Assembly (NCBI GenBank): GCA_009841725.1
Contig: VYGS01000040.1
Coordinates: forward strand, 1-35,552
From: Gammaproteobacteria bacterium
Lineage (GTDB): Bacteria > Pseudomonadota > Gammaproteobacteria > Arenicellales > Poriferihabitantaceae
Reading direction: 5' to 3'
Length of the DNA: 35,552 nt
Shown: positions 5,792-20,481 of the stretch, in pieces
Layout: each line of letters opens with the position of its first letter
How positions within the stretch are numbered: position 1 is the first letter of the stretch
Program-made: the position numbers and the translations under genes
The notes under the pieces: generated by a model
The model's database searches: none
What the model saw: the letters and a program-made list of their open reading frames with translations, nothing else
Told to the model about the DNA's origin: nothing

Positions 5792-6754
5792 TCAAACCAG
5801 TCCGTCCGGGCTTCCGCGATACGCATTGTTGATGTGCCAGAGCAGGTGTTTTTCACCGGGATGGCTCGATTTTTCCCGGGGCAGGAAGGACAGGGGCTTC
5901 GAATCGAATCGCCCGAGCAGTTCATCGTTGCCCTCTCCTGCAGTCAGGCTGGATACATGCACCCTGAATCCCTCCGGCGAGATGGTAAAGGCGCCGGCGT
6001 CAAACAGCTTGTGATGGATGGCGCACAGGGCAAGGCCGTTTGGAACGACGGGCGGGCCGTTCTGTTCATGCCATCGGATATGCGCCGCCTCAAGTCCGAT
6101 CGTTTTCCTGTCCAGGCGGACTGAAAAACGGCACACCGCGCACTGATTTTCGTATGCATGGACCACCTTCCCACGGAAGGCCGGGTCCCTCACCCGCCTT
6201 CGGTTCCATTCGAATTTTTCAAACAGATCTTCAGGTTCATGTCCCCGCATGTCCTCATCGACCTCTATCCCCGCTGTTAGCAGTATTTCATCGTGAAGAG
6301 AGCGGGGGAAATAGGCCGACATGATCCCCCGGACAACGCGCATGGCGATATCGGGATTTCGGGAAAACACGTCATGATCCGGCTCCGTGAGGCCGCCGAA
6401 CCGCGCGGCGAGCGTCGAGGCCACAGGACGATTCCGCTCTGCGCCGCGAACCAGGTCCGGACGGTCGATTTCCCAAACGCCGTCGTTGGCGAGATGCCAG
6501 AAGGGCAGATGGGGCTTTATGGCTTTCGTATGGGGCGCGTAACGACTGAGCAGCGGCGAGAGACCCTTGCGGACCGTCTCGTAGGACATCATCCGACCCT
6601 CGCCCTTCAGGCATTTTCCGATTGCAAACAGGACCAGCAGGTATTTGTGAGGGGCCCTTCCTCCTCCCTGAAGAGGGGCCGTCTTCAGTTTCGTGAAGCG
6701 CCTGAGAATGTCCTCTTCCGGATCGGTTTCAGCACTCATGCTTTTTGATTGCAT
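5792..6754 (-). CDS. Phosphorothioated-DNA-binding HNH restriction endonuclease (type IV)
   Basis: A predicted modification-dependent nuclease of about 320 residues. The N-terminal part (ILRRFTKLKTA, RAPHKYLLVLFAIG, then PFWHLANDGVWE) matches the sulfur-binding domain of the ScoMcrA/SprMcrA type, which recognises phosphorothioate DNA. The C-terminal third is an HNH nuclease with a CxxC pair (CAVC), EAAHIRWHE, then NGLALCAIHHKLFD, which supplies the metal-binding His and Asn residues. The frame stays open upstream to 6850. ATG codons at 6754 and 6739 are the plausible starts, and neither has a strong ribosome site. No dnd or ssp modification genes are in the window, as expected for a type IV enzyme that restricts foreign modified DNA. 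The family assignment is from memory of conserved blocks; specificity is inferred. Confidence 0.8.
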   Translation of the reverse strand: MQSKSMSAETDPEEDILRRFTKLKTAPLQGGGRAPHKYLLVLFAIGKCLKGEGRMMSYETVRKGLSPLLSRYAPHTKAIKPHLPFWHLANDGVWEIDRPDLVRGAERNRPVASTLAARFGGLTEPDHDVFSRNPDIAMRVVRGIMSAYFPRSLHDEILLTAGIEVDEDMRGHEPEDLFEKFEWNRRRVRDPAFRGKVVHAYENQCAVCRFSVRLDRKTIGLEAAHIRWHEQNGPPVVPNGLALCAIHHKLFDAGAFTISPEGFRVHVSSLTAGEGNDELLGRFDSKPLSFLPREKSSHPGEKHLLWHINNAYRGSPDGLV

Positions 6755-6919
6755 CCTGAATATGACGCCTTGTTCAACGCGGCTAGCGTGATGACAAGGA
6801 TACCAGTCTCCAGGATTTTTTCCAGCCGATGTTCCGGTTCCTGATGTCATCGCGGCGGCGTCTGCCGCAGGAAAAAGGGAGATGCAGTCGGGCTCGGCTC
6901 ATGCCCTAGTGGGCGCGCA

Positions 6920-8367: not shown

Positions 8368-9705
8368 TTGACAGAAGATGTGTTTTGGCAGAACTGCCTC
8401 CAGAAATTGAGGGAAACCCTTCCGGAAAAAGACATCGATTCCTGGATCACGCTCCTGCACTATCACAAGAGGAATTCGGTGCTGAAACTGCTGGCTCCGA
8501 ACCAGTATGTGCTGGAACATATCCGCAATAACCTTCTTTCAGACATCCAGCGTTCCCTCGTCTCGCCCGATTTCGGGCTCAACGAGGTCCGGATCGACAT
8601 CGGGAGCTACGGGCTGGAGGCCGGGCCGCCGGACGAGACGGGCAAACCGCTCCAGGCGCCGGCTTCCTTCAACGTGAATGAGGAGAAGAATCGGCCCAAC
8701 AAGGCCTTCACATTCGAAAACCATATCGAAGGCAGTTCCAACCATGTTGCCCGGGCCGCCGCCTACCATGTCGGAAACAAGCCCGGCGTGTCATACAACC
8801 CTCTTTTCATCTACGGGGGCGTGGGACTTGGCAAGACCCATCTCATGCACGCAGCGGGCAATCTCATCATGGAGAATTTCTCGAACGCGAAGGTGCTCTA
8901 CATCACGTCCGAGCGTTTTGTCACCAATCTGATCAACGCGCTTCGAAACAACTCGATCAACGAATTCAAGAACTTCTATCGGTCGCTGGACACGTTGCTT
9001 ATCGACGATATCCAGTTCCTGGCCAGGAAAACAATGTCCCAGGAGGAGTTTTTCCATACCTACAACGACTTGCTTGAGGGAGACCGGCAGATCATCATCA
9101 CCAGCGACCGGATTCCGGTGGCAATCAATCACATCGACGAGAGGCTGATTTCCCGGTTCGGCGCTGGCCTCACGGTCCAGATCGAGCCCCCGGAGCTGGA
9201 GACCCGGGTGGCCATCCTTTCGAAAAAGGCCTTTGAGAAAGGCATCGACCTGCCCGAGAACGTGGCGTTCTTCATCGCCAATATCGTCCGTTCCAATGTT
9301 CGCGACCTCGAAGGCGCGCTGCAGCAGATCGCCGCCACGGCCCGGTTCACGCACAGCCCTGTCGATCTCAATCTGGCAAGAAAGACGTTCAAGGATCTGC
9401 TCACCCATCACCAGCAGCAGCTCAGCATCGAAAACATACAGCAGACCGTCGCCAAGTACTTCAATATCCGGATTTCTGACCTGTTTTCGAAGAGCCGGTC
9501 GCGGGCTGTCGCGCGTCCCCGGCAGCTCGCCATGTACTTCTGCAAGGAATACACGGACAACAGCTATCCGTCCATTGGAGACAAGTTCGGCGGCCGGGAT
9601 CACTCGACCGTCATTCATGCCTGCACACGCATACAGGAGTTGATTGATTCCGATTCGAAAATGCGGGAGGATTACGAGAACCTGAACAAGCTTTTCGGTG
9701 GTTGA
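8368..9705 (+). CDS. dnaA: Chromosomal replication initiator DnaA
   Basis: AAA+ ATPase that binds DnaA boxes and melts the origin (445 residues). Domain I (FWQNCLQKLRETLPEKDIDSW) is followed by a short linker. The AAA+ core has Walker A GGVGLGKT (150-157) and Walker B LLIDD (210-214). The C-terminal helix-turn-helix domain carries the DnaA-box recognition signature GGRDHSTVIHA. The start is TTG at 8368: an in-frame TAA at 8362-8364 excludes anything further upstream, and the only other candidate is GTG at 8380, which would trim domain I. AAGGCGAG at 8354-8361 can serve as the ribosome site. A TTG start on this dose-sensitive initiator would keep translation low. dnaN follows after a 257-base gap that looks like the origin. 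Confidence 0.97.
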   Translation: MTEDVFWQNCLQKLRETLPEKDIDSWITLLHYHKRNSVLKLLAPNQYVLEHIRNNLLSDIQRSLVSPDFGLNEVRIDIGSYGLEAGPPDETGKPLQAPASFNVNEEKNRPNKAFTFENHIEGSSNHVARAAAYHVGNKPGVSYNPLFIYGGVGLGKTHLMHAAGNLIMENFSNAKVLYITSERFVTNLINALRNNSINEFKNFYRSLDTLLIDDIQFLARKTMSQEEFFHTYNDLLEGDRQIIITSDRIPVAINHIDERLISRFGAGLTVQIEPPELETRVAILSKKAFEKGIDLPENVAFFIANIVRSNVRDLEGALQQIAATARFTHSPVDLNLARKTFKDLLTHHQQQLSIENIQQTVAKYFNIRISDLFSKSRSRAVARPRQLAMYFCKEYTDNSYPSIGDKFGGRDHSTVIHACTRIQELIDSDSKMREDYENLNKLFGG

Positions 9706-9778
9706 GCGGTTCCAAGGCCCGGGAAACGGGAGCATCCGGAACGGCCGTCATCACGATCGGACAACTCTGTTCGTGCTT

Positions 9779-9798
9779 TGTGGATAAAATGGGGATAA
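9779..9798 (+). promoter_or_regulatory. Pair of DnaA boxes
   Basis: TGTGGATAA at 9779-9787 is perfect. TGGGGATAA at 9790-9798 differs at one position and lies in the same orientation 11 bases on, about one helical turn. The tandem spacing suggests cooperative DnaA binding. Confidence 0.75.
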
Positions 9799-9931
9799 TC
9801 TCTGATAAATTCACAGTTCAGAAAACTATCAACATATGGGCGTGTTTCATACCGCGGATATGCACAGCGTCGTAAACAAGGATAAATATACATAATTATT
9901 TGATACTTAATGCTTTTTTATAACCTTTAAC

Positions 9932-9960
9932 ATATCCACAGATCCAACAACTACTACTAG
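9932..9960 (-). promoter_or_regulatory. DnaA box next to DnaA-trio-like run
   Basis: On the plus strand ATATCCACA (9932-9940) is followed by GATCCAACA and then the run ending at 9960 that contains three ACT repeats. On the other strand this reads as three 3'-GAT-5' trinucleotides beside a DnaA box, the arrangement described for the DnaA-trio element of bacterial origins. The dnaN start codon (9963) is only 2 bases away and has no Shine-Dalgarno sequence, so the element occupies the space where one would be. Confidence 0.5.
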
Positions 9961-9962
9961 AT

Positions 9963-11069
9963 ATGAAATTTGTTATCAATAGGAATACCATGTTGCCCGC
10001 ACTGTCGTTCGTAAGCAGCGTGGTGGAAAGGCGACAGACGTTACCGATCCTGTCGAACGTCTTCTTCAATATCGAGGATGGACGGCTCGTGCTGGTCGGT
10101 TCGGATCTCGAGGTTGAAGTAACACGGACCATTGATGGCGTGGAGTGCGAGAACGGCTCGTTTACCGTTCTGGCTCGCACTGTTACGGACATCGTGCGGA
10201 TGCTTCCCGATGACGCTCAGGTGTCTTTTTCATATGAAAATCGGGAGCTTTCGATCGAATCTGGAAAAAGCCGCTACAAACTCAAGACCCTGCCCGCGGA
10301 AGACTATCCGAGGATACAGACCGAGGAATGGGAGGAACGGTTCAAGGTCGAGGGAAAGATACTGAAGGCCATGCTTGAGAAAACGTCTTTCGCGATGGCC
10401 CAGCAGGATGTCCGGTATTACCTTAACGGCGTGTCGCTGTCTATGGGAGGAAACGAGCTCATGGCCACGGCTACCGACGGGCACCGGCTGGCCAGGACGA
10501 AGGTCCCGCTTGATGTGGATCTTGAAAACGAAAGGGAAATCATCCTTCCGCGCAAGGCCGTGTTTGAAATCAGCAAGATATTCGACGGCAACGAGGATTC
10601 CACGCTGACCCTGGAGTACTCGCGCAATCACATGAGGGTCACGGGCCCCGATACGGTACTGATCACGAAGCTGATTGACGGGAAGTTTCCGCAGTTCGAC
10701 GAGGTCGTCAGCATCGACGGCGACGCAACGGGTCTCAGTCTTGATCGCAGGAGCCTGATCGAAATGCTGAGCCGGGTATCCGTGCTGACCACGGACCGGT
10801 TCAAGGGTATCCGGATGATTCTGGGGGAAAACAGACTGAAGGTCACGGCCAACACGCCGGAACAGGAGCAGGCGGTGGAGGAAATGGAAGTCGAGTATGA
10901 CGGTCCCGAAATCCTGTGCGGCTACAATGTCATCTACCTGCTCGATGCCGCCAAAACGATCGAGACGGAGAAAGCCGACGTGCTGCTCGACGACAAGGGT
11001 CATATCTGCTATTTCAGGCAGCCGGGCGATGAGCATTCATTGTGGCTGGTCATGCCGATGAGAATCTGA
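9963..11069 (+). CDS. dnaN: DNA polymerase III sliding clamp (beta subunit)
   Basis: Ring-shaped processivity clamp of the replicase (368 residues, the usual length). The N-terminus MKFVINRNTMLPALSFVSSV, TDGHRLA in the middle and the C-terminal LWLVMPMRI, typical of gammaproteobacterial clamps (MPMRL or similar), identify it. It lies between dnaA and gyrB as in many genomes, but the recF gene that normally follows is missing. No ribosome-binding site is visible upstream of ATG 9963, where the sequence is taken up by the trio-like run. Confidence 0.97.
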   Translation: MKFVINRNTMLPALSFVSSVVERRQTLPILSNVFFNIEDGRLVLVGSDLEVEVTRTIDGVECENGSFTVLARTVTDIVRMLPDDAQVSFSYENRELSIESGKSRYKLKTLPAEDYPRIQTEEWEERFKVEGKILKAMLEKTSFAMAQQDVRYYLNGVSLSMGGNELMATATDGHRLARTKVPLDVDLENEREIILPRKAVFEISKIFDGNEDSTLTLEYSRNHMRVTGPDTVLITKLIDGKFPQFDEVVSIDGDATGLSLDRRSLIEMLSRVSVLTTDRFKGIRMILGENRLKVTANTPEQEQAVEEMEVEYDGPEILCGYNVIYLLDAAKTIETEKADVLLDDKGHICYFRQPGDEHSLWLVMPMRI

Positions 11070-11188
11070 TTCCGAAAACACGGCAGAACCCCCTATCCGC
11101 CGCATGGAGGACGGCCGCTTCCATCCTCCGCATCGCGTCGTGTCCGGAGCGCTTGTCCGCACGGCGCAACGATGTCCCGCCAGTCGAA

Positions 11189-11204
11189 TGTTTCACGTGA
11201 AACA
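11189..11204. promoter_or_regulatory. parS: parS site 1 (ParB binding)
   Basis: TGTTTCACGTGAAACA is a perfect palindromic match to the chromosomal parS consensus, and flanking bases extend it to an 18-bp palindrome (11188-11205). ParB/Spo0J loads at such sites near the origin for chromosome segregation. parA and parB are not in the window. Confidence 0.93.
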
Positions 11205-11325
11205 TCGCCGTTCCGCCCGACCCGCGGCCACCCAAATCCGGGTGCGGATGCGGTATAATGAGCCTTGCTGTTTTCCTGAATTCGATCCTTGAACGAGAAA
11301 AGTCTTTGGCGCGCACCGCGCGCAA

Positions 11326-11341
11326 TGTTTCACGTGAAACA
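11326..11341. promoter_or_regulatory. parS: parS site 2 (ParB binding)
   Basis: A second perfect TGTTTCACGTGAAACA, again extendable to 18 bp (11325-11342), placed 137 bases after the first. Two identical sites in one short gap are very unlikely by chance. Confidence 0.93.
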
Positions 11342-11381
11342 TGCTTTTCTGACAGCTCTCCCGCCATCCCTCGTTAATCCT

Positions 11382-11402
11382 GGAGAACGGGATCCGTTCT
11401 CC
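11382..11402 (+). promoter_or_regulatory. Perfect hairpin immediately upstream of gyrB
   Basis: GGAGAACGG (11382-11390) and CCGTTCTCC (11394-11402) form a 9-bp perfect stem with a GAT loop, ending 15 bases before the gyrB ATG. The left arm contains GGAG, the only ribosome-site-like sequence nearby. The hairpin could modulate gyrB translation, act as an operator, or attenuate transcription; the following TAATATTTGG is only weakly T-rich, so it is not a good terminator. Confidence 0.55.
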
Positions 11403-11405
11403 TAA

Positions 11406-13823
<2,418 letters not shown>

Positions 13824-19899: not shown

Positions 19900-20481
<582 letters not shown>

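Follow-up and report, generated by a model that had tools for sequence, protein, structure and literature searches.

The two identical parS palindromes that lie between dnaN and gyrB in the window, that is, in the whole stretch of 35,552 nucleotides analysed here, probably represent an ordinary ParABS centromere with an inherited position: a pair of sites that was once embedded in recF and was kept after the surrounding gene had been lost. The palindrome, ATGTTTCACGTGAAACAT, is perfect over 18 bp and occurs at 11188..11205 (site 1) and at 11325..11342 (site 2), no strand being assigned to either, with a start-to-start distance of 137 bp; both copies match the parS consensus TGTTTCACGTGAAACA without a mismatch, so that the positions and the consensus match reported in the preliminary description are confirmed. 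According to the order of genes read from their Pfam domains, the pair sits directly after dnaA (8368..9705, + strand; PF00308/PF08299) and the sliding clamp gene dnaN (9963..11069, + strand; PF00712/PF02767/PF02768), and it is followed by gyrB (11418..13823, + strand; PF00204 and others), for which we take the ATG at 11418 while the mechanical open reading frame starts with TTG at 11409. The gap between dnaN and gyrB (11070..11417, + strand) is the former place of recF, of which no remnant is detectable. The gap between dnaA and dnaN (9706..9962), which lies about 1.4 kb away from the two palindromes, is likely oriC and holds DnaA-box-like sequences at 9779, 9790 and 9932, the number of such boxes in the window being not above chance. 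Upstream of dnaA there is also a gene for an HNH endonuclease (5792-6850, - strand; PF13391).

When the window was scanned with the 16-mer consensus allowing up to three mismatches, two matches were obtained in total, and they are the palindrome pair. Other perfect 16-bp palindromes are found in the window at 19909, 21640, 23249 and 32291, and all of them differ in sequence. The genome is a metagenome-assembled one of 2,611,800 bases (2.61 Mb) in 168 contigs, 94% complete, and throughout it the perfect 14-mer parS, GTTTCACGTGAAAC, is found exactly only at the two sites of the window; the next-best matches have two mismatches and occur at 11 further places, versus three for the backwards control. 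Further parS sites might be present in the unassembled DNA. The same genome encodes one protein with a ParB_N domain, a full-length ParB with ParB_N, HTH_ParB and ParB_C domains, and the neighbour of its gene encodes a ParA-type ATPase, in the order rsmG-parA-parB on a contig of 6.8 kb (C87). Thus, the genome-wide count of parS and the location of parAB, which had been proposed as checks, are now at hand, and the lack of a ParB homologue, which had been named as a refutation, does not apply, for both ParA and ParB are encoded. In relatives that carry both loci on one contig, the distance between the parS locus and parB is about 10 to 100 kb. The window pair therefore shows the consensus, the presence of ParA and ParB in the genome, the place near the origin and the conservation in relatives by which parS sites are recognised, and, judged from sequence, the palindromes would be bound by ParB as parS sites of a chromosomal centromere.

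How general is such a pair in the order to which the window belongs? The dnaN-gyrB region was read in 46 relatives, 43 of which have dnaN and gyrB adjacent, and sites with up to two mismatches were counted as parS-like. Exactly two such sites are found in 39 of the 43 intact gaps, three in one, one in another and none in two, and the spacing of the pair ranges from 23 to 1568 bp within the order. In genus g3 the two sites of a genome change alike, with CATGTG appearing twice in G020 and CATATG twice in G014, and in G017 of the same genus the two sites bear mirror-image changes; such joint changes are expected if one protein reads both sites. The two loci without sites in the gap belong to family f11, in which a single parS-like site is located near parB instead, and in G166, too, the sites are near parB rather than in the gap. 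DnaN of the two f11 loci (L119 and L120) is very divergent, with about 30% identity, and their lone parS lies 2-3 kb from parB.

The place which is empty in the window was described before as the space usually held by recF, and this holds: recF is absent here and is present in this gap in relatives of the class. In those relatives the sites lie within recF itself. They were first seen in named recF-bearing genomes, namely Pseudomonas, Halomonas, Alcanivorax, Haliea and Xanthomonadales, and then scanned across Gammaproteobacteria, each family being represented by one genome; two sites are found in 71 of the 89 recF-bearing loci scanned and three in seven. Site A and site B are separated by about 620 bp, mostly 606-654 bp, and all but 3 of 152 recF sites share the same reading phase. 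Placed by alignment of the RecF protein, independently of the DNA motif, site A is located in the RecF motif DWGxFHV[EK] and site B in a C-terminal xFHV[EK], and the sequence there is an exact parS in 85 of 102 genes at site A and in 76 of 102 at site B. The recF of E. coli K-12 has four mismatches at site A and three at site B, and the E. coli family is stated to be without par genes (PMC3909081); recF genes from other classes of the phylum (n=17) have at least four mismatches at both sites. In G156 (locus L349) both recF sites read GTTTCATATGAAAC and methionine replaces valine in both RecF motifs, a coordinated parS variant with consequences at the protein level; the same variant also occurs in G014, in a gap without recF.

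The codons used at these sites point to selection at the level of DNA. Histidine is encoded by CAC in 153 of 154 cases at site A and 143 of 145 at site B (296/299 pooled) versus 41% in the rest of recF, and valine by GTG in 150 of 154 and 144 of 145 (294/299 pooled) versus 34%. Glutamate at the two sites is encoded by GAA in 247 of 249 cases versus 51% elsewhere in the gene, the following codon begins with C in all 299 cases versus 28%, and the preceding codon ends in G in 298 of 299 versus 29%. An unbiased scan over 345 RecF columns placed seven of the eight columns with the strongest codon constraint in sites A and B, and the eighth is a C-terminal column that is filled in few sequences. Binomial statistics on these counts treat the sequences as independent and ignore their shared ancestry; given the size of the effect, selection on the DNA of sites A and B is nevertheless hardly in question.

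Loss of recF is not restricted to the window's own genome, in which RecF (TIGR00611) gives no match over the cut-off anywhere. Among 60 genomes of the order, sampled from 12 families, only two have RecF over the cut-off, and these are read as contamination, with the gene lying on separate contigs and each time beside a second copy of dnaN. Since RecF is missing across the sampled order, its absence is a property of the lineage and not an assembly gap. Remnants of recF were sought in the dnaN-gyrB gaps of the order, including that of the window, and only noise-level matches were obtained. In a tree of DnaN and GyrB, the window's order is placed in one clade with the recF-less G169, G116, G141, G182, L175 and L181, which is consistent with a single old loss. 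The recF-less G070, which kept two parS sites in a dnaN-gyrB gap of 249 bp, clusters with genomes that have recF, and a tree constrained to place it in the main clade is rejected (AU p 0.02). Thus, losses of recF that left both parS sites in place occurred at least twice. In two other recF-less genomes, G087 and G172, one site is found, which is the sole one in the respective genome; for G172 an AU test of a separate loss gave p 0.25, by which independence is not demonstrated. The process of loss can be seen under way in G168 (locus L330), where the space between dnaN and gyrB still holds a frameshifted remnant of recF; its site A differs from parS by one base, and site B is lost. Site B decayed here together with recF, so retention is not universal. 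G168 is a small genome on a single contig, in which a chromosomal ParB is present and an exact parS is found nowhere.

These observations can be put together in the following scenario. In the ancestor, both parS would have lain within the reading frame of recF, locked to the codons of two RecF motifs, as they do in most present-day Gammaproteobacteria. The gene would then have been deleted in the lineage of the window, and both sites would have been retained because, as we propose, they carried the segregation function. Once outside a reading frame, their spacing would have been free to drift, to 137 bp in the window. By analogy with the ParABS family, CTP-dependent ParB dimers would load at both sites and then spread, ParA would move the origin region, and SMC, if present, would be loaded. 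The best reading, drawn from position, number and phylogeny and not from flanking homology, is that the sites in the gap are descendants of the recF sites, site 1 of site A and site 2 of site B. With recF gone, the window does not have two parS at fixed recF codons, the mark of a recF-embedded pair, and its own pair is classed as a proposed descendant of such pairs, not as a present member.

Like the ParABS systems of Caulobacter and Bacillus subtilis, the one considered here consists of the same palindrome, ParA and ParB, with the palindrome placed near the origin. In those two bacteria parS is located elsewhere near the origin and does not form a conserved pair at the dnaN-gyrB locus; the natural parS of Caulobacter is about 8 kb from ori, unlike the window pair. 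The closest likeness is to parS1 and parS2 of P. aeruginosa, which are also two sites near oriC at the dnaN-recF-gyrB locus, and whose location within recF has already been published (PMC5521831, PMC3909081). Both sites of Pseudomonas recF genes are at the codons common to other Gammaproteobacteria. In Pseudomonas, however, recF is intact and the spacing is about 630 bp, whereas in the window the gene is gone and the spacing is 137 bp; and P. aeruginosa has eight more putative parS, while no other perfect parS is seen in the window's genome. One origin-proximal parS is reported to be enough for segregation in P. aeruginosa (PMC4368675). Neither a class-wide pair in recF, nor the codon constraint on it, nor its persistence once the gene was lost was found in the open-licence papers searched, and all three are therefore regarded as new only provisionally.

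If this account is true, the main origin-proximal centromere pair of the class has for a long time been part of the sequence of a gene for DNA repair, where it constrains RecF codons and even adjacent amino acids, and it persists without the surrounding gene once recF is gone. Some conserved residues of RecF might then reflect the centromere rather than the function of the protein, and positions of parS would become predictable in most uncultured Gammaproteobacteria. There would also be a natural counterpart to the ectopic-parS hot spot at recF-gyrB in Caulobacter (PMC5815017), which shares its neighbourhood with the window pair; that hot spot consists of artificial transposon insertions in an alphaproteobacterium with a natural parS cluster elsewhere (PMC5815017). 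It might even be that both the location between dnaN and gyrB, with or without recF, and the presence of parS in two copies are functional requirements, linked for example with the initiation of replication, the supply of gyrase or the loading of SMC, a tentative thought that we consider possible but not probable. If so, the pair would be held at this locus class-wide, fixing amino acids of RecF and surviving in place when recF is lost. Recurrent loss of recF offers ready comparisons on position, number of sites and spacing.

Could the sites in the gap have arisen anew after recF was lost, by selection for a parS near the origin? The recF flank around the window sites does not survive, and parS can relocate, as the sites near parB in family f11 and G166 indicate. 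Against this stand the count of exactly two sites in almost all families of the order and also in the separately recF-less G070, the same number as in recF of their relatives, and the placement of the sites in the gap and at no other point, although the gap makes up very little of the origin region; we consider a new origin unlikely. That the palindromes serve another factor, such as a transcriptional regulator of gyrB or a Noc-like paralogue of ParB, is conceivable insofar as binding of ParB to the window sites is a prediction, but they carry the exact parS consensus of ParB, the genome has a sole ParB_N protein and the two sites vary jointly, which makes this highly improbable. Chance palindromes are a negligible explanation: in shuffled windows a mean of 0.09 matches with up to three mismatches is expected, against two perfect ones observed, none of 100 shuffles gave two matches, and the conservation across the order refutes it.

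A descent from recF-embedded sites also bears on the idea, raised in the preliminary description, that the place in front of gyrB could link spreading of ParB with transcription of gyrB; in a fuller form of this idea, the sites would precede gyrB in order that ParB controls its expression and segregation is tied to supercoiling. A TATAAT hexamer at 11254..11259 (+ strand), between the two parS sites, is possibly the -10 element of gyrB; it has no recognisable -35, and a promoter scan of the dnaN-gyrB gap of the window did not find a full sigma-70 promoter, which counts against such regulation. In P. aeruginosa, gyrB goes down about 2-fold under excess ParB, while parB-null and parS-null mutants raise only PA0010-PA0015 and not gyrB/PA0004 (PMC5521831). 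Likewise, ectopic insertions of parS in Caulobacter favour the recF-gyrB surroundings for unexplained reasons, but transcription of gyrB is unchanged by parS inserted nearby (PMC5815017). Moreover, recF-bearing genomes have the sites within recF, outside any promoter gap of gyrB. Placement in front of gyrB is thus not supported as a sign of a link between ParB and gyrB, and the position would be explained by inheritance from recF; regulation of gyrB as the reason for the position seems quite unlikely to us, and regulation at the native level of ParB is a possibility which the P. aeruginosa and Caulobacter analogues do not support. Closer to the gene, 15 nt upstream of the gyrB ATG, there is a terminator- or attenuator-like hairpin at 11382-11402 (+ strand), composed of GGAGAACGG-GAT-CCGTTCTCC with a perfect 9-bp stem and a 3-nt loop and followed by TAATATTT.
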